Of a stretch of 64,000 nucleotides of DNA, positions 39,365 through 51,736 are shown one piece after another. The stretch spans positions 186,001-250,000 of the forward strand of contig NGFI01000002.1 in the NCBI GenBank assembly GCA_002215645.1, read 5' to 3'. How positions within the stretch are numbered: position 1 is the first letter of the stretch; the number at the start of each line of letters is the position of its first letter. This DNA comes from Gemmatimonadetes bacterium 2013_60CM_65_52. GTDB taxonomy: Bacteria > Gemmatimonadota > Gemmatimonadetes > Gemmatimonadales > Gemmatimonadaceae. The position numbers were made by a program, and so were the translations under genes. The notes under the pieces were generated by a model. That model did not search any database. It saw only the letters and a list, made by a program, of their open reading frames with translations, and was not told where the DNA came from.

Positions 39365-40759
39365 TCAGGGCGTAGTCGGCGGCGGCGCCATGACCAGAGC
39401 GTCGTCGCGGATGGAGACGTAGGTTCCCTTGCGCAGCGACTCCATCAGCCGGTGCACACCGCCTTCTTCCGCGAGCCGCGCACGGAATTTCTCCTTGACG
39501 TCGGCCAGGGTGAGCTCGCCGCCCTCTTCCATCGCGACGATCTGCGCAACCACGAACTTCGTGGGCACGTTCGCGTTGCCGGGAATCGGGAAGACGACGA
39601 CGTCGCGCGGCGCCTTGCCGCCGAACCCTTGTTGGTACGGCGTGGGCAACTGCGCCCGGGGATACGGCGTGAGCAGTGACGTCTCCTCGCCGCTCTTGAA
39701 GTCGTGGTGTGCCTTCGCGAGCGAATCGAACGGTGCGCCAGCACGCAACGCGAGGGCGACGCTATCGGCCTCGCGCTGCGCGGCCGCCACGTCGAGCGAA
39801 TCGATCTTCGGCGAGATGAGGATGTGCCGCGCCTTCACCTCGGACGGACTCGCACGGTCGACGCGGATGATGTGATAGCCGAACGCCGTCTCGACGACCG
39901 GACTCAGCTGTCCGGGCGGGAGCGAGAACATCCAGCGGTCGAACTCCGGCACCATCTTGCCGCGCCGGTTCCACCCGAGATCTCCGCCGTTGTCCTTGGT
40001 GCCCGGATCCGCCGATTCGCGCTTGGCGAGCTTCTCGAATTCCGCGCCGTTGTTCAACTCCACCAGCAGTGATTCCGCGCGGGCGCGCGCCGCCTCGCGC
40101 GATTTCGGCGAGGGATGCGGCGCCACGATGATCTGCTTCCACGCCACCGTGGACTCGCGCCTCGGCAGCGTCGCCTTGTTGCGCTCGAAGGATTCGGCGA
40201 CCTCGGCGTCGGTGATGTTGGCCTGCGCGATCTTGCCCTCTTCACGCAGCTTGCGGATGGTGCGCGTGATGGTCTCGTTGCGCTTGATCTCGTCCGTCAG
40301 AAAGCGGCGGTATTCCTCCGGCGTGCCATAGCCCGCCTTGCCGAGCTCCGAGCGGAACTCCGCGTCGCTCGAGAAGCGCTTGCGGATGTCCTTGAATTGC
40401 TTGTCGACGGTGCTGGTGACGTCCGCATCCGGGACTTCGATCTTGACATCCTTGGCCTTCTGGAGCAGCAGCTCCTCGTCCACGAGCTCGTTGACGATCG
40501 CCTTGACGAAAGTGCGGAAGGCGGCGCTGTCCGTGGGCACGGTGATGCCGCTCTGGCGCTTCTGGATGATCCGCTCCTGTAGGCCGGACTGCGTAATGAC
40601 GACGTCGCCGACGACCGCGACGATCCGGTCCAGGGGGAGCGGACGCGCCTGCGCATCGCTTTTCTGAAGAGCCAGCGGCGCGGCGGGCGCCTGGGCGTGG
40701 AGGCCGAAGGGGGCGAGGACGAGGAGCGCCGAGGCGGCGGATCGGGCAGAGAGACGCAT
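39365..40759 (-). CDS. surA: SurA-like periplasmic peptidyl-prolyl isomerase
   Basis: A 464-residue chaperone/isomerase. A signal peptide (about 1-23, FGLHAQ) precedes the SurA N-domain (DRIVAVVGDVVITQSGLQERI; FVKAIVNELVDEELLLQKA) and two parvulin modules. The first is intact (GGDLGWNRRGKMVPEFDRWMF...FGYHIIRVD); the second, near KARHILISPK, is degenerate. It escorts outer-membrane proteins through the periplasm. The ATG at 40759 gives a proper signal; the frame is open 14 codons more without need. It is coupled to pdxA as in enterobacteria, giving confidence in the name. Confidence 0.88.
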   Translation of the reverse strand: MRLSARSAASALLVLAPFGLHAQAPAAPLALQKSDAQARPLPLDRIVAVVGDVVITQSGLQERIIQKRQSGITVPTDSAAFRTFVKAIVNELVDEELLLQKAKDVKIEVPDADVTSTVDKQFKDIRKRFSSDAEFRSELGKAGYGTPEEYRRFLTDEIKRNETITRTIRKLREEGKIAQANITDAEVAESFERNKATLPRRESTVAWKQIIVAPHPSPKSREAARARAESLLVELNNGAEFEKLAKRESADPGTKDNGGDLGWNRRGKMVPEFDRWMFSLPPGQLSPVVETAFGYHIIRVDRASPSEVKARHILISPKIDSLDVAAAQREADSVALALRAGAPFDSLAKAHHDFKSGEETSLLTPYPRAQLPTPYQQGFGGKAPRDVVVFPIPGNANVPTKFVVAQIVAMEEGGELTLADVKEKFRARLAEEGGVHRLMESLRKGTYVSIRDDALVMAPPPTTP

Positions 40760-41159
40760 GGCGCAGAAGTATAAGGATGTGGTGGTGGGGTCGCGCACCA
40801 AGTTGGTACCCGCTCGATGCGATGGCGTTTCCGCGGATTTCTAGCGAGATAGGCAAGTGCACTGGCGTTGCATTCTGCCATAATTACCGCACCATGCAAG
40901 TGTGCATAGTATTGCAACATCTGTCAAACGTACTAGGACATCGAGGCCACATTTACCGAGATGACTGATTCGTCCGACATGAGAGCGGACATATTGTCGT
41001 CATATTGACCGCGCCTACGGTGGCCCCGGCATTGCTTTGACACCTCGCATCGCAGACCAGTAGTTGCGTCTCGCCAGCAACGAGACCGGCCGCTTGGCGA
41101 GGGTGCCAACGGTGTACCGCTCTTCTCTCTCTCCGAGCCCAGCGCTCGAGGACCTCCGT
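40760..41159. other. Intergenic region with divergent promoters and repeated motif
   Basis: A 400-base stretch without a supported gene, less GC-rich than its surroundings. It should hold the surA promoter (minus) and the lipoprotein promoter (plus). TTGACA at 41037-41042 is a good -35 with a weak -10 (GTAGTT, 41060-41065), about 95 bases before the lipoprotein start. GCAAGTG-N8-TTGCA (40853-40872) and GCAAGTG-N9-TTGCA (40896-40916) form an imperfect direct repeat, and ATGCA-AGTG-TGCAT (40894-40907) is an inverted repeat within it. Confidence 0.45.
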
Positions 41160-41825
41160 ATGCGCAAGCCGATGCTGGCACGCTCCACTGCCGCGCGACT
41201 CGCCCTGCTCTGCACCGTGGCGGTACTGCTCGGTGCGTGCGGGGAGAGTAACACCGCGCCGAGCGCTCGCCGGTCGACCACCCCCGAAGCCACGTCGATG
41301 TTCGTGCCCGACGCGGCGAGCAAGGCGCTCTTCGGTGTGGCCGATGGTACGTACGTCGTCACGTTCGACCCGAAAAAGGACCAGGCGTTCTACCTGGGAC
41401 CCAATCACCTCAACATGCCGGCGAACTCCGTCTGCAATCTGTTGACGTCGGGTTACGGATCGCAGTACTGGGATGCCCCCTGCACGCCGCAGACACAGCA
41501 TGTGACGCTCACCGTCACCATCAAGAACGCCGCGTCGGACCACCCGTCGGTGGAGTTCCAGCCCGCGATGCGGTTCAACCCCGCCAAGGTCGTGCAGTTG
41601 TTCATGTACGTCCCGAACGCAACGCTGCAGGACGCCTCGAACTGGCTGATGCTGTACTGCCCAACGGGCTCCGCCACGTGCGTCGACGAGTCCAAGACCG
41701 ATCCGAGCCTCACGTCATACGTGGATCGCTCGGCAAACGTCGTGTTCCGCCGGATCAAGCACTTCAGTGGCTACGTCATCACTGGGTACACTGATACGCC
41801 GCCGGACGACCTCGTCCTTCCCTGA
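41160..41825 (+). CDS. Lipoprotein of unknown function (221 aa)
   Basis: A 221-residue lipoprotein with lipobox VLLGAC (Cys27) followed by GESNTAPSARR. The mature part is beta-rich with several Cys and aromatic residues (NSVCNLLTSGYG, LMLYCPTGSATC) and ends RIKHFSGYVITGYT. The ATG at 41160 follows GAGGAC; the frame is open upstream with no better site. No family is recognised; exported proteins ending in an HFSGY motif are common in this style of genome. A small ORF and a terminator follow. Confidence 0.65.
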   Translation: MRKPMLARSTAARLALLCTVAVLLGACGESNTAPSARRSTTPEATSMFVPDAASKALFGVADGTYVVTFDPKKDQAFYLGPNHLNMPANSVCNLLTSGYGSQYWDAPCTPQTQHVTLTVTIKNAASDHPSVEFQPAMRFNPAKVVQLFMYVPNATLQDASNWLMLYCPTGSATCVDESKTDPSLTSYVDRSANVVFRRIKHFSGYVITGYTDTPPDDLVLP

Positions 41826-41876: not shown

Positions 41877-41963
41877 ATGCAACAGGTAAAACTCACCACG
41901 CAGAGGGCCGATGACGCGCGGATCGTGCTGCGGACATCCGGCTACATCATCGCCTCTAGCTGA
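41877..41963 (+). CDS. Possible 28-residue peptide ORF
   Basis: ATG at 41877 behind GGAG (five to eight bases upstream) opens a 28-codon frame beginning MQQVKLTTQ and ending TSGYIIASS, TGA at 41963, eight bases before a strong terminator. The end resembles the C-terminus of the preceding lipoprotein (FSGYVITGY), so it may be a gene remnant as easily as a real peptide. There is no membrane segment or leader motif. Confidence 0.35.
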   Translation: MQQVKLTTQRADDARIVLRTSGYIIASS

Positions 41964-41970
41964 GCTCTTA

Positions 41971-42006
41971 GACGGCCGGCCCCACACGGGACCGGCCGTC
42001 GCTCTT
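41971..42006 (+). terminator. Rho-independent terminator after the lipoprotein/peptide unit
   Basis: GACGGCCGGCCCC (41971-41983) pairs with GGGACCGGCCGTC (41988-42000) across loop ACAC with a single mismatch, giving a 13-bp GC-rich stem. The T tract is short (GCTCTTT). It insulates the lipoprotein transcript from the megaprotein gene starting at 42084. Confidence 0.72.
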
Positions 42007-42083: not shown

Positions 42084-45000
42084 ATGACCGACAGTAGCGC
42101 GCCGACGCGCCACCTGAGACTTCTGGATGCGCCCGCGAGGGGCGCCACCACGAGTACGCTCATCGAGGAGGCACGAGCGCTGGACAAGCTCGGCCACCGC
42201 GCTGAAGCCCGCGCGCTGTACGAGGCCGCGCTCCGCTCGCTCGCCGCCCCGTCGCCATCGATGGCGTCGATGTTGATGCGGTGGATCGCGCGGACGTACG
42301 AGGTGGACGCCGATTACCGCGCCGCCGAGGACTGCGCCACCGCGGCGGTGGCCGCCGCCGAGGTCGCAGAGGACCGCAACGCGCTCGGCCACGCGCTCAA
42401 CGTGCTCGCTGCCGTCCGCTGGCGGCAAGGCGACCTCGATCACGCCGCACAGCTTTTCCAGGAAGCGCTCGAGCGCGGCACCACGACCACCGACCCGCGG
42501 CTCCAGGTGGACGTGATGACCAACCTCGGCACGATGGCGGGCATTCGCGGAGACTTCCGCGAGGCGCTCCGTTTCTTCCAGGAGGCATTGTCGCACGGAC
42601 GCCTCCACTCGCTTCTCGACAACATCGTCATCGCGCTCAACAACCTCGGCATCACCAACATGGCGCTCGGCCGGCACGATGCGGCGGAGGATACGTTCGC
42701 CGAAGCGCTGACGATCGCCGATGCCCTGGGCGGTATGTCGACGCGCGTGCAACTCGAGGTGAACATCGCGGCGCTGCAGATCGAGAAGCACAACTTCGAG
42801 GAGGCCAAGCGCCGCTGCGACCGCGCGATGGCGCTGGCCGGCCACCTCGACGACGCGCGCGCCAACGGCGAGGCATCCAAGATCTACGGCGTCATCGCGC
42901 GCGAAACGGGCGACCTCGCGGCCGCGGAAAAGCACCTGGCAGCGGCGCGCGACATGGCGAGTGCCGCGAAGGACCTTGCTCTGGAGGGCAGCGCGAACCG
43001 CGAGCTGGCGGAGCTGTATGGGCGCCTTGGCCGCAACCGCGAGACGCTCCAGGCGCTGAACCGCGCCCATGGCTGTTTCACGCAGCTGCGGTCGCGGCAC
43101 GAGCTCGCCGACGTCGGCCGCCGCATGGCGCGCCTCGAGGGCGACTTCCTGGACGTCGTGCGCAAGTGGGGCGAGTCCATCGAATCCAAGGACCAGCATA
43201 CGCAGGGTCATTGCGAGCGCGTCGCCGATCTCGCGGGGGCGCTCGCGGCGCGCGCGGGACTCGACGAGCCCTCGCTGTTCTGGTTCCGCATCGGCGCACT
43301 GCTGCACGACGTGGGCAAACTGATCGTGCCCGCCGAAGTGCTGAACAAGCCCGGCAAGCTCACCGAGGAGGAGTGGGCACTCGTACGACAGCATCCCGCG
43401 GCCGGCGAGCAGCTCCTCGCCGACGTGCAGTTCCCCTGGGACGTGGCGCCGATGGTGCGCAGCCACCACGAGCGGTGGGATGGACACGGCTACCCCGACG
43501 GTCTCACGGGCGAGCGCATTCCGTTGCCCGCGCGCATTCTCTGTATCGCGGACGTATACGACGCGCTCACCACGCAGCGCAGCTACAAGCGCGCCTTCAC
43601 GCAGATCGAGGCCATCGAGATCATGCGGCGCGAGGTCGGACGTCAATTCGATCCCGCGCTGTTCGCGCGTTTCGAGGAGCTCGTGCGCCGCGGCACGGTG
43701 AACGCGCCCTCCGCCGCGCAGCGCGGCACACCGATGCGAAAGTCCGGCACCCAGCCGAAGGTCACCATCTCCGAGGAAGACGATCTCACGGGCGCGCTCG
43801 TGCGGCGGGCGTTCGTGGATGTGACGTCGGCGGTGCTCGCCGAGCGCAGGCGGGGTGGAGCGATCGTCTCGCTGCTCGTGATCGACGTGGACCAGTTCAA
43901 GAACGTGAACGACACGTACGGCCACCTCGCCGGCGACGACGCGCTTCGGCTGGTCGCCGGCATCATGCGCGACGCGGCGCGCCCCGGGCAATACGTCGGC
44001 CGGTATGCGGGTGACGAGTTCGTCATGCTGCTGCCCGGCCTCGACACCGACAGCGCGGGTGTCATCGCGGAAGAAATCCGCCGCTCGGTCGCAACGATGA
44101 GCATTCCGCTCCGCGAGGGCCCCGACCAGCGGATGTCCGTGACCCTTTCCATAGGCGTGGCCGCCGCGCCGGACCACGGAGATTCGTTCGAGGCGTTGTT
44201 TACAACGGCGGACCGCGCCCTCTTCGAGTCCAAGCGCGAGGGGCGCGATCGGGTGACACTCGCCGGCGCGTCGAAGAGCGCAACGCCACAGTTGCTCTTC
44301 AACCGCTTCGTGGGGCGCGCCCGGGAGATGCGCTCGCTGGTGACCGCGCTCGACAACAGCGTGCACGGACAGCCTCAGACGCGCGTGCTCACCGGCGAGG
44401 CGGGCGTGGGCAAGTCGTCGCTCGTGCGCCAGCTCCTGCCCGAAGCGCGGCTGCGCGGCACCGCGGTGGTGACGGGACGCGCGCTCGAGAGCGAGACGCG
44501 GATGCCGTTCGGTCCATGGAAGGAATTGCTCGCCGGCATCCACGAGCTGGGACTGGCCCCGACTCGCTCGTGGCCGCTACTGTCACGCCTCGTTCCGTCA
44601 CTGCGCGAGACGGGGCGCGCTTCCACCACGGAGCCGAATGCGGAGTCCGTGCAGGCGACGCTCGTCCGCCAGGAGATCGTCGCGTTCCTGCGTGCTGCCA
44701 GCGAAGCGCGGCCGCTTCTGCTCGTGCTCGAGGACATGCACTGGAGCGACACGGCGAGCTGGGATACGCTCGAATTTCTCCTCGCGCAGTTGACGACGGA
44801 ACGGATCTGCATCGCGTGCACCGTGCGCATGGAGGAGGCTGCGTACGGGCCCGTGCGCGAGCGCCGGCAGCGCCTCACCCGCGACGAGCGTGTTCGCGAG
44901 CTCCGGCTCGAGCGGCTCACGCCGCCGGAAGTCGCCGAGTGGCTCCAGAGCGCCCTGCACCGCACCGAGCTGGGCGACGACCTGCTGGACTTCGTGTTGC

Positions 45001-46895
45001 GTCACACCGAAGGGAATCCGTTCCTCGTCGTCCAACTGCTTCGCACGATGGCCGAGGAGGGCGTGTTCCGCTATTCGGGCGACTCGTGGGAGTGGACGAT
45101 TCCGGCGACCCTCGTGCTGCCGGCGGGCATGACGGACCTCGTTGGCCGGCGCCTCTCTCGTCTCCCACCCGAAGCGATGAAAGTGCTGGTGACCGCCGCG
45201 GCTCTCGGCCGCACGTTCACGCTGCCGCTGTTGACGGAGACGTCCGGCGCGAAGGCGGATGCCGTGCTCGACGCGGTGGACGCGGCCTTGGCAACGTCGG
45301 TCCTGGAGCCGACGGGCGACGACGACGACACGTATCAGTTCGCGCATGCGCTGCTCGTGGACGCGGTGCTCAAGTCGGTGAGCCCCGCGCGGCGACGTCT
45401 GACGCACGAGCGCATTGCCGAGATTCTCGTCAGGCGGAATCCGGACGACGTGGACCGGATCGCGGCGCACTACGCCAGCAGCTCCAACAGCGGCGAAGCC
45501 TATGCGTGGTGCTTGCGGGCGGCATCGCGCGCGATGGGTCTCTACGCACTCGAGGAGGCGTCCGACTTTCTCCAGCGCGCGCTGGCGCATGCGCGCACGG
45601 ATGAGGAGCGCGTGGCCGTCCACGAGGAAATGGCGCGGGCTGCGGAGCATTCGGGACGTTGGGCCGACGTGGAGCGTTCGTGCGACGCGATTCTCGCGTC
45701 GTCCACGATCGCCGCGGACGAGACGCGCGCGCTGCACGTGCGGCTGCGCCGCCTGCAAGCCAGGGTGCGCCTCGGCCAGGGCGCCGGCGATACCGCCGCG
45801 GAATGTCGCGCGCTGCTCGTGGTGGCCGAGCGCGTCGGGGCGCTCTCCAACATCGTGCAGGCAAGATCCCTTCTCGTCCAGATTCTCGGACGGGCAGGAG
45901 AGCTGGAGCAGGCGACGCGCATCGCCGAGGAATCACTCCGCATTGCCGAAGCCGCGGGGGACGACGCGCTCTATGACGAGGCGCTGCATCGTCTCGCGGT
46001 CACACTGTTCGAGTCACGCCTCGACGACGCCATCGCGCATCTCCTGCGGCTCATCGAGCGTGCGCGCCTGCGCGGCGACAAGGTCATGGTGGCGCGCGCC
46101 TTCCTGACGCTCGGCGTCGCGCGCATGCGTTCGAGCGACGACCCGGCCGCTGGCGAGGCGTTCCACTCCTCGCTCGTGACGGCGCGTGAGGCAGGTGCGC
46201 TGGACTTCGCCGCGACGGCATCGATGAACCTCGGCGTCATCGGGCTGCGCGGCGGCGACCTCGCCTCGGCGCGCGACGCGCTCACGGACGCGCTCCGTCT
46301 GTACACCACGTTGCGGAACAACACCAACCGCACGGCGGCCTTGTACAATCTCGCGAATCTCGAGCGCGAGCGCGGTGACGCGGAGATCGCGCTGTCGCTC
46401 TACAAGGAGACGGCAGCGCTGGCGAATCAGCTCGGTGCGGAAGACATCGCCATCGGCGCGTACGCCGGCGGTGGACTGGCGGCGCTCAAGCTCGGTGATA
46501 CGTCCACCGCGCAGGGATCGCTCGACTCAGCCTACGAGGCGCTCGGCCAGCGTCACGATTGGTGGTTCCAGGGGCGCGAGCTGTTCGAGTCGTTGGTGAT
46601 TCGCATGCATGCGAGCCGCGGTGAGTACAACGACGCCGTGCGGCGGTTTCACGCCGCCATCGAGCGGCTCGAGGCCATCGACGTGTACGCGGCCGCGTGG
46701 CTTGCGGGCGACTGCGCCGCCGACGTCGCCCAGCATGACGACAGCCTGTGGTCCACCATCGAGCGCCTTGGCGCGCATCCCACGGTGCAGCAGTTCATGC
46801 TGCTCTCGGCGCGATTTACCGCGTTGCGCGATATGTCAGAGCGCCTTGGCTCCGCCCATATGCGAACTGGCGACGGTACGGCACTTGGACTGTAG
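42084..46895 (+). CDS. TPR / HD-GYP / GGDEF / STAND ATPase / TPR megaprotein
   Basis: A 1,603-residue cytosolic protein. Residues 25-360: TPR repeats (LGTMAGIRGDFREALRFFQEAL). About 370-540: complete HD-GYP domain with HTQGHCERV, HDVGK (near 407) and HHERWDGHGYPDG (near 460), the pattern of c-di-GMP phosphodiesterases. About 570-735: GGDEF domain whose active loop reads YAGDEF (near 641); AGDEF variants can be active, and the usual RxxD inhibitory site is absent (RPGQ). About 750-1100: STAND/AAA16-type ATPase with FVGRAREM, GEAGVGKSS (near 770) and LLLVLEDMHWSD (near 882). About 1130-1590: more TPRs. No DNA-binding domain and no membrane segment. Start ATG 42084 lies past the terminator; the upstream frame is rejected. 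Confidence 0.88.
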   Translation: MTDSSAPTRHLRLLDAPARGATTSTLIEEARALDKLGHRAEARALYEAALRSLAAPSPSMASMLMRWIARTYEVDADYRAAEDCATAAVAAAEVAEDRNALGHALNVLAAVRWRQGDLDHAAQLFQEALERGTTTTDPRLQVDVMTNLGTMAGIRGDFREALRFFQEALSHGRLHSLLDNIVIALNNLGITNMALGRHDAAEDTFAEALTIADALGGMSTRVQLEVNIAALQIEKHNFEEAKRRCDRAMALAGHLDDARANGEASKIYGVIARETGDLAAAEKHLAAARDMASAAKDLALEGSANRELAELYGRLGRNRETLQALNRAHGCFTQLRSRHELADVGRRMARLEGDFLDVVRKWGESIESKDQHTQGHCERVADLAGALAARAGLDEPSLFWFRIGALLHDVGKLIVPAEVLNKPGKLTEEEWALVRQHPAAGEQLLADVQFPWDVAPMVRSHHERWDGHGYPDGLTGERIPLPARILCIADVYDALTTQRSYKRAFTQIEAIEIMRREVGRQFDPALFARFEELVRRGTVNAPSAAQRGTPMRKSGTQPKVTISEEDDLTGALVRRAFVDVTSAVLAERRRGGAIVSLLVIDVDQFKNVNDTYGHLAGDDALRLVAGIMRDAARPGQYVGRYAGDEFVMLLPGLDTDSAGVIAEEIRRSVATMSIPLREGPDQRMSVTLSIGVAAAPDHGDSFEALFTTADRALFESKREGRDRVTLAGASKSATPQLLFNRFVGRAREMRSLVTALDNSVHGQPQTRVLTGEAGVGKSSLVRQLLPEARLRGTAVVTGRALESETRMPFGPWKELLAGIHELGLAPTRSWPLLSRLVPSLRETGRASTTEPNAESVQATLVRQEIVAFLRAASEARPLLLVLEDMHWSDTASWDTLEFLLAQLTTERICIACTVRMEEAAYGPVRERRQRLTRDERVRELRLERLTPPEVAEWLQSALHRTELGDDLLDFVLRHTEGNPFLVVQLLRTMAEEGVFRYSGDSWEWTIPATLVLPAGMTDLVGRRLSRLPPEAMKVLVTAAALGRTFTLPLLTETSGAKADAVLDAVDAALATSVLEPTGDDDDTYQFAHALLVDAVLKSVSPARRRLTHERIAEILVRRNPDDVDRIAAHYASSSNSGEAYAWCLRAASRAMGLYALEEASDFLQRALAHARTDEERVAVHEEMARAAEHSGRWADVERSCDAILASSTIAADETRALHVRLRRLQARVRLGQGAGDTAAECRALLVVAERVGALSNIVQARSLLVQILGRAGELEQATRIAEESLRIAEAAGDDALYDEALHRLAVTLFESRLDDAIAHLLRLIERARLRGDKVMVARAFLTLGVARMRSSDDPAAGEAFHSSLVTAREAGALDFAATASMNLGVIGLRGGDLASARDALTDALRLYTTLRNNTNRTAALYNLANLERERGDAEIALSLYKETAALANQLGAEDIAIGAYAGGGLAALKLGDTSTAQGSLDSAYEALGQRHDWWFQGRELFESLVIRMHASRGEYNDAVRRFHAAIERLEAIDVYAAAWLAGDCAADVAQHDDSLWSTIERLGAHPTVQQFMLLSARFTALRDMSERLGSAHMRTGDGTALGL

Positions 46896-46960
46896 GACGG
46901 TAGGTCGGTAACGGCGGGTTCCCGTCTTCCGACCTACCGACCTACCGACCTACCGACCTA
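46896..46960. repeat. CCGACCTA tandem repeat and bidirectional hairpin between convergent genes
   Basis: Four exact copies of CCGACCTA run from 46929 to 46960. The first one and a half pair with GACGGTAGGTCGG at 46896-46908, giving a 13-bp stem with one mismatch and a 20-base loop. Genes converge here: the megaprotein stops at 46895 and the parvulin stop (46958-46960) lies in the last repeat unit. It probably terminates one or both, though T tracts are absent. Extra copies may arise by slippage. Confidence 0.6.
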
Positions 46961-48427
46961 CGGCCTCGCCGGCGCCGCGCCTTTGGGCGCCTGCATCGGC
47001 TGCGGCGCGCCTGGCAGCGGCACCGCCGACTTCGGCTGTCCGGCCGTGCGCGACGAATCAGCCTGCGCACGGAGCTGTGTAGCGCGCTCCACCGCGCGAT
47101 CGATGCCCGCCGCGTTGACCTTGGCTTCGTACTTGTTCAGCAGGACGATCACGAGGGGCACAGGAATGGGAAGCGGCTGCGCCTGTCCATTCATCACGCG
47201 GTCCATGTAGGCCTCGACGCGTGCGGCCGCGAGGCGCTCGCGCGCATCGGGCGTCTTCGCGGAATCAACGAGCGACTTGGGGTCGACTCCCAGAGCGGTC
47301 CAGCTCTGCGCGACGGCCTGCGCGAAATCGGTGTGGAGCTGATTGATCTCCTCGGGCTTCACCACGACCTTCGCGCTGTCGGCGCGCCGGAGCAGGACGT
47401 CGCGCTGCGCCATGTTCGTCGCGTAGATGCCGACGAGCGAATCGGGCGCGGACTGGATCTGCTGCATCAGGCGGCCGCTCTGCGGCGACGCGGCCATGAC
47501 GAGGGCGAGTCGGCCCGCCGTGAGCGTGCCTCCATTGTACGTCGCGATGACGTGGGTATCTCCACGCTTCGCGAGAGGATCCTTGGCGATCTCCTTCACC
47601 GAGGTCGCCGCGTCCTTGGCGAGGGTGATCTTCGCGTTGGCCTGCATCTGCGCGATGTAGGTGCTCTCCGCCACCTGGCGGCTGCGTCCACTCGCCTGCA
47701 CCAGAAACTCCGGCTTCGCGCGCGTCCAGGTGTTTCGCTGGATGATGTGATAGCCGAACTGCGTTTCGACCAGCGGAGAGATCTCGCCCGGCTTGAGCTT
47801 CGCCAGCGCGTCGGAGAACGGCTTGACCATCATCCCGCGCGGAAACACGCCCAGGTCGCCGCCCTTCTGGGCCGAGGCGTCCTTGCTGTACTTCTTCGCC
47901 ATGTCGGCGAAGTTGGCGTCGGTCACCTGCGGCCGCACCGCGGCGGCCGCCTTGCGCACGGAATCCTTCGCGGCCGGCGTCGCATTGTCGGGGAACTTGA
48001 AGAGGATGTGTCGCGCGGAGTACAGGTCGCCCGCACCGGAGGTGTACGCCGTCTCGGACCCCGAATCCACCGGCATCTTCGTGGCGACCTGCTCCATGAA
48101 CCGCTGGAGGCGCGTGTTCTCGAGCATCGCCGCGGTCGCCGAATCGATCGCCTTCGGATCGTTCAGCGAATCGTTGCGGCCGGCAGCCAGACCGAGGAGC
48201 TGGTAGGGGATCCAGAGGTCGCGCGCCACCAGCGTTGCGACCTCACGGTTGACCGGAAGCCCGATCTTCGATTTGCCGATGAGGTCCCCCAGCCGGACGA
48301 CGGACAGCTCCTGCGAGCCCGCCTTCGCGGCGACGTCGACATGCGCGGTGAATGCCTGACTGAGGCCTTCGCAGGCCGCGAGCGTCGAGCCACTGAGAGC
48401 GAGCACGAGAAGCGAAGCGTGTTTCAT
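46958..48427 (-). CDS. Parvulin-type peptidyl-prolyl isomerase lipoprotein
   Basis: A 489-residue lipoprotein (lipobox LAAC, Cys19) with one parvulin domain at about 140-240: ARHILFKFPD, KGGDLGVFPRGMM and VETQFGYHIIQR. Flanking helical regions resemble the chaperone parts of PrsA/PpiC proteins, and the tail is Pro/Ala-rich (QPMQAPKGAAPARP). It should assist folding of exported proteins at the membrane surface. It follows mfd on the same strand 27 bases away. The repeat described at 46929 overlaps its stop. Confidence 0.85.
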   Translation of the reverse strand: MKHASLLVLALSGSTLAACEGLSQAFTAHVDVAAKAGSQELSVVRLGDLIGKSKIGLPVNREVATLVARDLWIPYQLLGLAAGRNDSLNDPKAIDSATAAMLENTRLQRFMEQVATKMPVDSGSETAYTSGAGDLYSARHILFKFPDNATPAAKDSVRKAAAAVRPQVTDANFADMAKKYSKDASAQKGGDLGVFPRGMMVKPFSDALAKLKPGEISPLVETQFGYHIIQRNTWTRAKPEFLVQASGRSRQVAESTYIAQMQANAKITLAKDAATSVKEIAKDPLAKRGDTHVIATYNGGTLTAGRLALVMAASPQSGRLMQQIQSAPDSLVGIYATNMAQRDVLLRRADSAKVVVKPEEINQLHTDFAQAVAQSWTALGVDPKSLVDSAKTPDARERLAAARVEAYMDRVMNGQAQPLPIPVPLVIVLLNKYEAKVNAAGIDRAVERATQLRAQADSSRTAGQPKSAVPLPGAPQPMQAPKGAAPARP

Positions 48428-48454: not shown

Positions 48455-51400
48455 TCAGACGACCGCGCGCAGAGCGCGCACGAGCCCGTCGAGGAGCGGG
48501 GAGCCCCCGAGCCGAGTGAGCTTGAGTGAAAGGGGGTGCGCGCGGCGCACCTCTGCCTGAAACTGTACCTCGTGGAACGCCGCGGAGAGTCCCTTCATGC
48601 GCGGGACCGCAGAATCCCTAAAGGTAATACGGGCTTCGTCGCCACGCACCAGGATGCCCTCGATGCCCAGGAGCCCGCCCAGAATGCGAAGCAGGCCCAT
48701 GGCGAGCATGGCCTCGGCGGGTGGCGGCATCACGCCAAAACGGTCGCGCATCTCGGCGCGGAGCGCCTGGATTTCCTCGGGCGTCTCGAAGCGCGCCAGC
48801 CGCTTGTAGACGTCCAGCTTTGCTTCCTGCGACTCGATGTAGTCGTCCGGAATGTGGGCCGGAATGTCCATGGACACGTCCGCCGGCCGCGGAGCAGGCG
48901 CGCTGTCGCCGCGCATGAGGCGCTCCACGGTTTCGTCCAGCATGCGGAGATACAGGTCGAACCCAACGGCATGGACGTACCCGGTCTGTTCCGCGCCAAG
49001 CAGGTTGCCTGCGCCGCGCATCTCCATGTCCTTGAGCGCGATCTTGTAGCCCGCGCCAAGCTCCGTGTGGTGCTCGAGTACCTGGAGGCGACGCTCGGCA
49101 TCCGGATCCACCGAGTCCGGCACGAGGAGATAGCAGTAGGCGCGCCGGTGCGAGCGCCCCACGCGGCCGCGGAGCTGATAGAGTTGTGCAAGGCCCAGGT
49201 GGTCGGCGCGATTGACGAACATCGTGTTCGCGTTCGGCACGTCGAGGCCGCTCTCGACGATGAGCGTGGAGACGAGGACGTCGATGTCGCCGTTGACGAA
49301 GCGGTGCATGATGTCCTCGAGCTGCCGCTCCTTCATCTGTCCATGCGCAACCGCTACGCGAGCTCGTGGCACGATGCGCCGGATCATGTCCGCGTGCGCC
49401 ACGATGGTCTCGATGCGATTGTGGACGAAGAACACCTGCCCACCGCGATCGAGCTCGCGCGCGATGCCTTCCTCGAGGAGCCCGTCGTCCATCGGCTCGA
49501 CGAACGTGAGGACTGGTGACCGGTCGCGCGGCGGCGTCTGCATCAGCGTCATGTCGCGAAGGCCCGCGAGCGACAGATGCAGCGTGCGCGGAATCGGTGT
49601 CGCGGTGAGCGTGAGGACGTCCGTCTCGAGCTTCAGTTGCTTGAGGCGCTCCTTGTGCTTCACGCCGAACCGATGCTCCTCGTCCACGATGATGATGCCC
49701 AGCTCGTTGAACTTCACGTCGGCGCTGAGCAGCCGGTGAGTGCCAATGACGACGTCGATCTTCTTCTCCGCCAGTGCGGCGAGCGATTCGGTCTGCTCCT
49801 TTGCGGTCTGAAAGCGACTCAACACCGCGATGCGTACGGGAAAGTCGGCGAGCCGCTCGGTGAACGTTCTCGCGTGCTGGTCGGCCAGAATGGTCGTGGG
49901 CACGAGCACCGCCACCTGCCGGCCACTCTGCACCGCCTTGAACGCCGCGCGCACCGCAATCTCCGTCTTGCCGTATCCGACGTCGCCGACGAGCAGGCGG
50001 TCCATGGGACGCACGCTCTCCATGTCCTGCTTTACGTCGGTCGTGGCCTTGCGCTGATCGGGCGTGTCCTCGAAGAGGAAGCTGCTCTCGAGCTGTCGTT
50101 GCCACGCGGTATCCGGAACGTGCGGCGGCCGCGACGCCACCTTGCGGCGCGCATAGAGATCGAGGAGCTCGAGCGTCATCTCCTGAATGGCCGCGCGCGT
50201 GCGGTCGCGCTGCTGCGCCCACCGCTTTCCGCCAAGCCTGTGCAAGCGAGGTGGAGGAGCGTCCTCGCTGACGTCGTCGGCGGAACGGTAACGCTCGAGC
50301 TGGTCGATACGGTACAACGGCACGTTGAGCCGGTCGCCGCCCTCGTACTCGACGACCGCGACCTCGACGGTGCTCTGGCCGACGAAGATCGTCTCGATGC
50401 CGCGATAGATGCCGACGCCGTGCTCCAGATGGACGACGATGTCGCCCGGTTTGAGCGCGAGAGAGTCCCGGCTTCCGCTGACGTAACGCCGACTGCGCCG
50501 GACACGACGCTCGCGACGAAAGATTTCATGGTCGGTGAGAATGCGCAGGCCGGCATCGCGATCGCCGGCGGGAACGAGCCACCCTCCGCCCAGCGCACCG
50601 ACGACGAGCGCGGCAGGCGAGAGGTCGCGCACGCCTTCATTGAGCAGCTCGTCCAGGCGCTCGCATTGTCCTTCGTTGTCGCAGAGGATGACCGTGGGAA
50701 GTCCGTCACGCACCAGCCGACGCAGGCGCTTGATGTCGCGGTCGATGGGCTCCGGAGATCGCAGCGGGAACGTGACGTCGGCCTCTTCCGCCGTCGGATC
50801 CACGAGACGGATCCGCCCCAGAGACGCCAGCGTCGCCGTGGCCTTCTCAGGTGAATCGAACAACACGTCGCGCGCTTCGACGTCCTCGCCGCGCCGCCGA
50901 GCGAGATCGAGGTGGTGTGCGGCTTCGTCCCACGTGCGGCGCAGCTCGGGGACGACGTGCGTACCTGTCGGGTAGACGAGCAGCGTATCGGGAGGGAAGA
51001 GCGCGGACACGGAAAGGCGCTCGCCGACCGGCGTCTCCTCGCTGACGTGATCGGCCACCGGCAACACCACCGCGAGATCGACCTCGCGCGTGGACCGCTG
51101 CGACGTGAGGTCGAAGTGGCGCAGGTCCACGACCTCGTCGCCCCAGAACTCCAGGCGCACGGGATCGCTCATGCCAAACGAGTAGACGTCGAGAATGCCG
51201 CCGCGCAAAGAGAATTGCGCGACGTCCTCGACCATGGGTACACGCTCGAAGCCAATGCGCTCGAGATGTTCGACGAGGTCCTTCGGGCGACGGACGTCGC
51301 CCTTTCGCATCTCGATGCGGAGGTCCGCGAGCGAACCGGGAAGTCGCGTGCGCTCCAGCAGCGCACGTGGAGTCGTGAGCAAGACGCGAATCTCACCGCG

Positions 51401-51736
51401 CCCGAGGCGCTCGAGCGTTTCGACGCGTTCACCAGCGACCTCGACGTGCGGCTCCGCTTCGCCGAAGCCTTCACGTGGCGGATAAAGCGCTACGGGCGCC
51501 TCGTCGAGCAGCGTGTGCAGATCGGCCAGCATTCGTTCAGCGAGCGGCACACCGTCGGCCACCACGACGAGAAAGCGCGTGGGCAGACGCCTCGTGAGCG
51601 CGGCGATGAATGCCGCGTCCGAGGAACCTGGCAGTCCTGCCACGCGAAGCTCATGCGACGGAACGGGGAGTGTATTGAACACGCGCGCGAAAGCCGGCAG
51701 GCGTTCGATCGCGTCGAGCAGACTCGGAAGTGACAC
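48455..51736 (-). CDS. mfd: Transcription-repair coupling factor (Mfd)
   Basis: A 1,093-residue DNA translocase that frees stalled RNA polymerase and recruits UvrA. Domain order: UvrB-homology region (1-330; ARYPP-like LYPPREGFGEAEP), RNA polymerase-interacting domain (near 440-500; GDIVVHLEHGVGIYRGI), superfamily 2 helicase (Walker A GDVGYGKTE, DEEH box IIIVDEEHRFG, motif III TATPIPRTLHLSL, motif VI QLRGRVGRSHR) and a C-terminal TRCF domain (RFGVMPPPAEAML). Length is normal. The start is GTG at 51736, one base inside the stop of the BatA-like gene. Confidence 0.96.
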   Translation of the reverse strand: MSLPSLLDAIERLPAFARVFNTLPVPSHELRVAGLPGSSDAAFIAALTRRLPTRFLVVVADGVPLAERMLADLHTLLDEAPVALYPPREGFGEAEPHVEVAGERVETLERLGRGEIRVLLTTPRALLERTRLPGSLADLRIEMRKGDVRRPKDLVEHLERIGFERVPMVEDVAQFSLRGGILDVYSFGMSDPVRLEFWGDEVVDLRHFDLTSQRSTREVDLAVVLPVADHVSEETPVGERLSVSALFPPDTLLVYPTGTHVVPELRRTWDEAAHHLDLARRRGEDVEARDVLFDSPEKATATLASLGRIRLVDPTAEEADVTFPLRSPEPIDRDIKRLRRLVRDGLPTVILCDNEGQCERLDELLNEGVRDLSPAALVVGALGGGWLVPAGDRDAGLRILTDHEIFRRERRVRRSRRYVSGSRDSLALKPGDIVVHLEHGVGIYRGIETIFVGQSTVEVAVVEYEGGDRLNVPLYRIDQLERYRSADDVSEDAPPPRLHRLGGKRWAQQRDRTRAAIQEMTLELLDLYARRKVASRPPHVPDTAWQRQLESSFLFEDTPDQRKATTDVKQDMESVRPMDRLLVGDVGYGKTEIAVRAAFKAVQSGRQVAVLVPTTILADQHARTFTERLADFPVRIAVLSRFQTAKEQTESLAALAEKKIDVVIGTHRLLSADVKFNELGIIIVDEEHRFGVKHKERLKQLKLETDVLTLTATPIPRTLHLSLAGLRDMTLMQTPPRDRSPVLTFVEPMDDGLLEEGIARELDRGGQVFFVHNRIETIVAHADMIRRIVPRARVAVAHGQMKERQLEDIMHRFVNGDIDVLVSTLIVESGLDVPNANTMFVNRADHLGLAQLYQLRGRVGRSHRRAYCYLLVPDSVDPDAERRLQVLEHHTELGAGYKIALKDMEMRGAGNLLGAEQTGYVHAVGFDLYLRMLDETVERLMRGDSAPAPRPADVSMDIPAHIPDDYIESQEAKLDVYKRLARFETPEEIQALRAEMRDRFGVMPPPAEAMLAMGLLRILGGLLGIEGILVRGDEARITFRDSAVPRMKGLSAAFHEVQFQAEVRRAHPLSLKLTRLGGSPLLDGLVRALRAVV

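Follow-up and report, generated by a model that had tools for sequence, protein, structure and literature searches.

The window analysed here, a stretch of 64,000 nucleotides of Gemmatimonadota DNA, carries three successive genes on one strand: a lipoprotein gene (F1), a short open reading frame whose product ends in SGYIIASS (the SGY peptide), and, 120 bp further on, a gene for a large multidomain protein, which we refer to as the receptor. Table 1 lists these genes and their features. On either side of the cassette lie genes that, on reading their sequences, we take to encode two SurA/PpiC-like peptidyl-prolyl isomerases and Mfd. A first-pass annotation had covered the receptor gene only; it missed the linked F1 gene, which sits immediately upstream of the region described, and the gene for the SGY peptide, both of which suggest what the receptor might sense.

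Table 1. Features of the cassette and its flanks, in window coordinates
Feature	Position	Strand	Remarks
Flanking genes of cassette	39365-40801, 46958-48427, 48455-51736	-	sequence reading
F1 lipoprotein gene	41160-41825	+	221 aa from ATG 41160; ORF reaches back to TTG 41064
SGY peptide ORF	41877-41963	+	28 aa: MQQVKLTTQRADDARIVLRTSGYIIASS; GTGGAG upstream of ATG
Hairpin, terminator-like, weak T tract	41971-42000	+	just past peptide stop
TPR-HD-GYP-GGDEF-STAND-TPR protein (receptor)	42084-46895	+	1603 aa from ATG; other start TTG 42006
N-terminal TPR array, candidate peptide-binding region	42156-43118	+	aa 25-345; Pfam TPR_12
HD-GYP phosphodiesterase domain (putative)	43143-43688	+	aa 354-535
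GGDEF domain, AGDEF loop, without RxxD	43770-44264	+	aa 563-727
STAND ATPase core and the helical/winged segment after it	44301-45323	+	aa 740-1080
C-terminal TPR superhelix	45351-46853	+	aa 1090-1590

The receptor had been described as one soluble polypeptide in which HD-GYP, GGDEF and STAND modules are held between two TPR arrays, and this description is borne out by the order of its Pfam matches, which run from N to C as TPR_12 (six stretches), HD_5 (residues 366-526, E 4e-42), GGDEF (566-723, E 3e-38), AAA_16 (741-909, E 1e-26) and MalT-like TPR. Pfam and hydropathy also agree with the earlier statement that DNA-binding and membrane domains are missing: there is no DNA-binding domain among the matches, and no transmembrane helix, the highest Kyte-Doolittle average over 19 residues being 1.32. 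The motifs on which the description was built all occur, in the same order, in the 1603-residue frame: HDVGK (408-412) and HHERWDGHGYPDG (461-473) in the HD-GYP domain, YAGDEF (641-646) in the GGDEF loop, and GEAGVGKSS (771-779, with Walker A at 771-778) and LEDMHWSD (882-889, with Walker B residues E883 and D884) in the STAND core. A GxP-type motif (GNP, 977-979) follows the NTPase core and is itself followed by the TPR superhelix, which completes the set of sequence features expected of a STAND protein. The GGDEF domain likewise has its metal- and GTP-binding residues and a [GA]GDEF loop, and lacks the RxxD inhibitory site, a common but not obligatory feature, as previously noted (the position reads RPGQ). 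Residues 545-1603 were modelled with AlphaFold on 41 aligned sequences (mean pLDDT 89.7); the closest counterpart of the model in the PDB is 6mfv, a STAND-TPR structure (E 2.6e-15), with many GGDEF structures next in line. A TOMM kinase/cyclase model aligns to residues 742-1290 of the receptor.

A chance reading frame is excluded by 51 distinct collinear fused proteins, all from the window's own family, in which the catalytic residues are nearly invariant against a mean column identity of 0.57-0.76 in the catalytic domains. The HD-GYP domain of the receptor has the HD dyad and the HHExxDGxGYPxxxxxxxI signature and retains metal ligands H376, H408, D409, H437, H461, H462 and D490, that is, seven of the eight ligands of PmGH; the eighth position, E185 in PmGH, is H372. 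Across the 51 fused homologs, the equivalents of PmGH H189, H221, D222, H250, H276, H277, D305, D183 and K225 are kept in 49 to 51 rows, with at most one exception among the rows that cover each ligand position, while the E185 position is Tyr in 30 and His in 10, which points to the subgroup that is predicted to be binuclear (PMC4159591). By sequence, the closest solved HD-GYP structure is 5z7c, a 3'3'-cGAMP-specific phosphodiesterase, so that c-di-GMP is only a candidate substrate of the domain. In the GGDEF domain, D601, N609, D618, D644 and E645 are present in all 51 homologs, and D618, which we take to be the guanine-contact Asp at the position of PleD D344, argues for a predicted conversion of GTP to c-di-GMP. 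In V. cholerae VCA0965 an AGDEF loop is functional (PMC3974145). The STAND core keeps the Walker A lysine K777 in 51 of 51 homologs, the Walker B aspartate D884 in 50, and the G and P of the GNP motif in 51 and 46, respectively. The receptor is probably a STAND-controlled c-di-GMP enzyme, and the earlier proposal of a nucleotide-gated switch fits both the predicted anatomy and the invariance of K777.

How widespread is this arrangement? Strong matches to the receptor occur in 66 of the 148 genomes sampled from the window's family (35 genera), with the full architecture in about 11 genera and tandem copies in some genomes. Among 298 phylum genomes, with the best few candidates scored in each, the matches at E 1e-100 from outside the family cover the TPR-HD-GYP part only, and two other families (f2 and f5) have GGDEF-STAND-HEAT proteins without HD-GYP. 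Acidobacteria have GGDEF-STAND, GGDEF-STAND-TPR and Pkinase-GGDEF-STAND-TPR proteins, none with HD-GYP; kinases or wHTH domains take the place of the enzymes beside STAND-TPR in a Myxococcales-centred phylum sample, and in a Chloroflexi-centred sample the STAND part alone was matched. Some 200-250 genomes were sampled for each of these other phyla, making absence there provisional. The domain-architecture search that the first-pass annotation had called for, across Gemmatimonadota and beyond, thus reveals a fusion that is widespread within one family rather than a one-off, and parts of it elsewhere. Its view that the arrangement is unlike common regulators stands for the whole protein, which resembles no c-di-GMP architecture in the literature searched; the GGDEF-STAND portion also exists elsewhere without HD-GYP.

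The window's genome itself encodes a second full paralog, one TPR-HD-GYP gene and one GGDEF-STAND-TPR gene. In trees, 15 solo GGDEF-STAND genes form one supported clade nested among the fused proteins, and four genes that combine HD-GYP with a degenerate GGDEF domain form another. This nesting is most simply read as fission after fusion, and the trees suggest one fusion followed by later fissions, some of which would have yielded pseudo-enzymes: 11 of the 15 solo GGDEF-STAND genes have lost the Walker A lysine and have a GGDEF site that is mostly degenerate. For the solo TPR-HD-GYP genes a single origin is weakly rejected (p-AU 0.044), making secondary loss in the window's genus likely, though not firmly so. 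Several individual loci deserve mention. In the pseudo-enzyme clade (solo GGDEF-STAND-TPR genes, L167-L176 and L144), Thr or Ser replaces the Walker A Lys in 11 of 15, and the Walker B region, the GNP motif and the adjacent F1 gene are mostly kept. The four genes of the other nested clade (L160-L163) encode TPR-HD-GYP with a degenerate GGDEF and no STAND module. In a tandem copy at L147:10486-15294, FD replaces HD and the metal-binding region is divergent, although the GGDEF and Walker sites are intact; it is likely a dead HD-GYP adjoining an intact paralog. The C-terminal TPR array is missing from two relatives of the second paralog (L203 and L204), which have F1 on their downstream side. An automatic TPR-HD-GYP label for L202 was rejected, this being a fused gene cut by the end of its contig.

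F1 comprises a signal sequence, the lipobox LLGAC, a predicted ZU5/GAIN-like domain and the motif HFSGY, followed by VITGYTDTPPDDLVLP. In the alignment of 11 sequences from which we built the family profile (A1), HFSGY is nearly invariant, and HFS.[YFW] is found in 99 of 125 distinct F1-like matches. The AF2 model has a pLDDT of 73 overall and about 90 across much of the domain. Its top Foldseek matches (4d8o, 3ud2, 6m3q and 8oek), which are ankyrin ZU5 and BAI2 GAIN domains, are modest (E 1.1e-3, query TM 0.43) despite a probability of 1.00; Pfam ZU5 exceeds its cut-off in two F1 homologs (L186 and L189), with no match in the window's F1. HFSGY occupies residues 202-206 and leads into the last predicted strand (205-209), and 26 F1 chains end 7-10 residues past HF (for example HF/SGYIVAMD), leaving the kind of tail that the small peptides carry. 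PIDD cleaves itself at HF/S after its ZU5 domain, and CARD8 and NLRP1 do so at SF/S (PMC3210808). With the ZU5/FIIND domains of these proteins and with GAIN domains, F1 shares an HF/S-like motif before the last strand and, as far as its modest structure matches go, may share the fold; it differs in being a bacterial lipoprotein in which no UPA, death or GPCR part is seen. Given the PIDD-like motif and the predicted fold, self-cleavage of F1 at HF/S is a reasonable prediction by analogy, and F1 suggests a bacterial parallel to the HF/S self-cleaving ZU5/GAIN domains.

At homologous loci, ORFs of 27-83 aa occupy the same place as the SGY peptide, with unrelated front parts and the same type of ending (SGYIIASS, SGYIVASS, SGYTVASS, SGYIIAVG, AGYTVLAD, QGYIVTAD). 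Of 2202 small ORFs in the neighbourhood of F1 or receptor genes, 34 (17 distinct) carry such a tail, against 0 of 22,134 elsewhere (Fisher 1.7e-18, a value to be read in the knowledge that the motif was set after examples had been seen and that orthologs are not independent). One of the 17, SGYVVVE at L111, has no F1 gene adjoining and may be a chance match. In codon alignments with one pair per peptide group, the last 10 codons have accumulated 17 synonymous and 3 nonsynonymous changes, compared to 41 and 67 in the rest of the ORFs (p 1.3e-4). Because changes in the tail are mostly synonymous, it appears to be translated and under selection. Peptides at L106-L109 and L114-L116 have hydrophobic N-termini; by eye, no obvious signal sequence is present in those of the window, L198, L295 and L300/303/305. 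A search of the remaining homolog loci in the window's genome gave no separate SGY peptide ORF, only the tails of F1. Strong hairpins of unrelated sequence stand behind most of the homologous peptide stops, suggesting an F1-peptide unit apart from the receptor gene; in the window this unit probably ends at the hairpin listed in Table 1. A sigma-70 promoter scan of the locus found nothing, and Rfam returned no match, hence no known c-di-GMP riboswitch, between 36000 and 52000.

The association between F1 and receptor homologs is non-random. In the 4.2 Mb genome of the window, a profile search recovers six F1 genes, and all six adjoin receptor homologs: both full paralogs, the TPR-HD-GYP gene, the GGDEF-STAND gene and two TPR-only genes. 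Among the 83 F1 matches listed from 395 genomes of the phylum, 60 directly adjoin homologs and 68 lie in the same cluster, including clusters in families other than the window's; 15 are away from recognised homologs or at contig ends. F1, encoded on the same strand, precedes most genes with an HD-GYP domain and follows the GGDEF-STAND solo genes. A rough estimate that ignores shared ancestry puts the probability of this linkage arising by chance at 3e-14 for the genome and far lower for the phylum. Since TPR-only and TPR-HD-GYP homologs likewise have adjoining F1 genes, the N-terminal TPR array is the candidate peptide-binding region. At L300, L303 and L305, F1 and SGY peptide occur as pairs with no recognised TPR or STAND homolog in the stretch fetched; a receptor of another type is possible there.

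The layout recalls the RRNPP systems of Firmicutes (Rap-Phr, NprR, PlcR-PapR, PrgX, Rgg), for which the criteria are a receptor of 250-500 aa and, within 400 bp, a pro-peptide of 10-100 aa with a variable pro-region and a conserved C-terminal stretch of 4-10 residues (PMC10075063). Here, too, the predicted receptor has TPRs, is cytoplasmic and lacks transmembrane helices, and the adjacent 28-residue peptide with its constrained tail matches the pro-peptide description. However, the receptor contains predicted c-di-GMP enzymes and a STAND ATPase and, with its 1603 aa, falls outside the length range; phylum (Gemmatimonadota) and output differ, a ZU5/GAIN-like lipoprotein carries the same tail, and the window's peptide has no clear export signal. 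On grounds of length, phylum, output and export signal we do not file the cassette under RRNPP, although by analogy it may work like one.

As for the receptor alone, effector-STAND-TPR proteins are a known design that includes the class III cyclase-STAND-TPR proteins, soluble adenylyl cyclase among them, and the MalT/LAL regulators. The receptor shares their N-terminal output, AAA_16/STAND core and C-terminal TPRs, but its output is a TPR-HD-GYP-GGDEF block that places opposing c-di-GMP enzymes in one chain. In the Acidobacteria proteins and those of f2 and f5, GGDEF directly precedes STAND, as it does here, yet they have neither HD-GYP nor N-terminal TPRs and are only about 28-29% identical over GGDEF-STAND. 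GGDEF-EAL and GGDEF-HD-GYP bifunctional enzymes also combine synthesis and degradation; we know of none with a STAND ATPase or TPR arrays. Neither the cassette nor a protein that combines HD-GYP, GGDEF and STAND is described in the literature searched, which covered few subscription journals; in it we find no STAND-gated c-di-GMP enzyme and only incidental matches for AAA_16 with GGDEF. BcsE, put forward as a STAND-GGDEF precedent by a text search, was rejected because it is a degenerate REC-GGDEF protein. The receptor by itself is a novel form of effector-STAND-TPR signalling; the cassette, if confirmed, would be more.

What might the cassette do? Our leading interpretation, to which we assign a probability of roughly 0.4, is a peptide-gated c-di-GMP switch that resembles RRNPP systems in layout while not being a member. 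It draws directly on the architecture, the three conserved active sites, the F1 linkage, selection on the peptide tail and the predicted ZU5/GAIN-like fold, from which we infer enzyme activity, autocleavage, export and re-import, peptide binding, and STAND gating and its direction. The cassette would consist of an exported ZU5/GAIN-like lipoprotein, a peptide ending in SGYIIASS and a cytoplasmic receptor-enzyme. F1 would cleave itself at HF/S, or the small pro-peptide would be trimmed, to give SGY plus about five residues; this product would enter the cytoplasm and settle on one of the receptor's two TPR superhelices, in all likelihood that at the N terminus. Nucleotide exchange and oligomerisation of the STAND module would follow, bringing GGDEF domains together so that c-di-GMP is made, altering HD-GYP hydrolysis, or both, and the level of the signal would set that of c-di-GMP through the balance of the two enzymes. 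Several observations speak against peptide gating: the peptides named above that have no obvious signal sequence, the failure to find separate SGY peptides at other loci of the genome, the GGDEF-STAND solo genes that have F1 downstream but no N-terminal TPRs, so that either TPR array might be the binding site, the 15 F1 genes away from recognised homologs or at contig ends, the modest structure matches of F1, and the expected placement of F1 outside the inner membrane when the receptor is cytoplasmic. Physiological signals are known for few c-di-GMP enzymes. Should the linkage mean what it seems to, SGYIIASS is a concrete ligand candidate for a STAND receptor, and TPR-type peptide signalling, so far described for Firmicutes, would extend to a little-studied phylum with c-di-GMP as output. 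Tentatively, this diderm phylum could have a form of peptide communication that belongs to a new class, with self-cleaving F1 and pro-peptides releasing SGY-type octapeptides that TPR proteins read, several receptor-signal pairs to a genome; that such octapeptide readers act by making and degrading c-di-GMP under the control of a STAND ATPase is a conjecture we hold just as cautiously.

The main rival to peptide gating is that some other cytoplasmic ligand acts on the STAND-TPR half of a bifunctional c-di-GMP switch, F1 and the peptide being outputs or co-regulated surface parts. We consider this somewhat less probable than a peptide-gated switch, and give similarly limited credence to the associated idea that the TPR arrays bind protein partners. 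It sits well with the generality of effector-STAND-TPR syntax, which joins kinases and wHTH domains in the Myxococcales-centred sample and gives Pkinase-GGDEF-STAND-TPR in Acidobacteria, with the lipoprotein as a plausible surface target of c-di-GMP control, and with the terminator-like hairpin between the F1-peptide unit and the receptor gene, which means that one operon is not required. It leaves unexplained, though, why an ORF of 28-70 aa should keep only its last eight residues and why F1 lies beside TPR-only homologs that have no enzyme domains. Alternatively, the SGY tail might be a structural beta strand, with the peptide supplying, or competing for, the last strand of F1 in the manner of donor-strand exchange, in an envelope assembly run by the adjacent regulators. 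The lead of HFSGY into that strand, the motif common to both kinds of tail, and the position of peptide ORFs shortly downstream of F1 even where no receptor is recognised (L300, L303, L305) are in keeping with such a role, which we nevertheless judge unlikely: some peptides lack an export signal, peptide tails such as AGYTVLAD are unlike the F1 tail at the same locus (SGYIVAMD), and no reason is offered for the linkage to TPR proteins.

Two further scenarios concern the receptor itself. Its function could be one-sided, HD-GYP hydrolysing c-di-GMP and GGDEF only binding GTP or c-di-GMP allosterically under STAND control, as might be the case where GGDEF has lost several residues and HD-GYP and Walker A are intact (L135, L136, L137, L155 and L157, all of one lineage, and L159). 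Most members, including the window's receptor, have a complete GGDEF site, and the tandem copy at L147 lost HD-GYP but kept GGDEF and STAND, so we think a one-sided function improbable. Still less do we favour a role in conflict or defence, in which a STAND-type protein would signal by way of cyclic dinucleotides. Avs defence proteins have STAND folds, with Avs3 among the structure matches of the receptor, and rare GGDEF fusions are found in predicted conflict systems (PMC7159879); yet the PADLOC match is to a generic TPR only, and the gene belongs to a conserved family spread over many genera.

We also note that in two genomes of the Acidobacteria-centred sample (G825 and G862), GGDEF-STAND genes lie near exopolysaccharide-type genes: at L250 near what we read from sequence as a nucleotide-sugar dehydrogenase, and at L252 two genes upstream of a presumed cellulose-synthase-like glycosyltransferase. 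The window's own genome has about 9 HD-GYP, about 11 GGDEF, 3 EAL and 1 PilZ matches, a c-di-GMP repertoire that is large for a single recognised PilZ domain.
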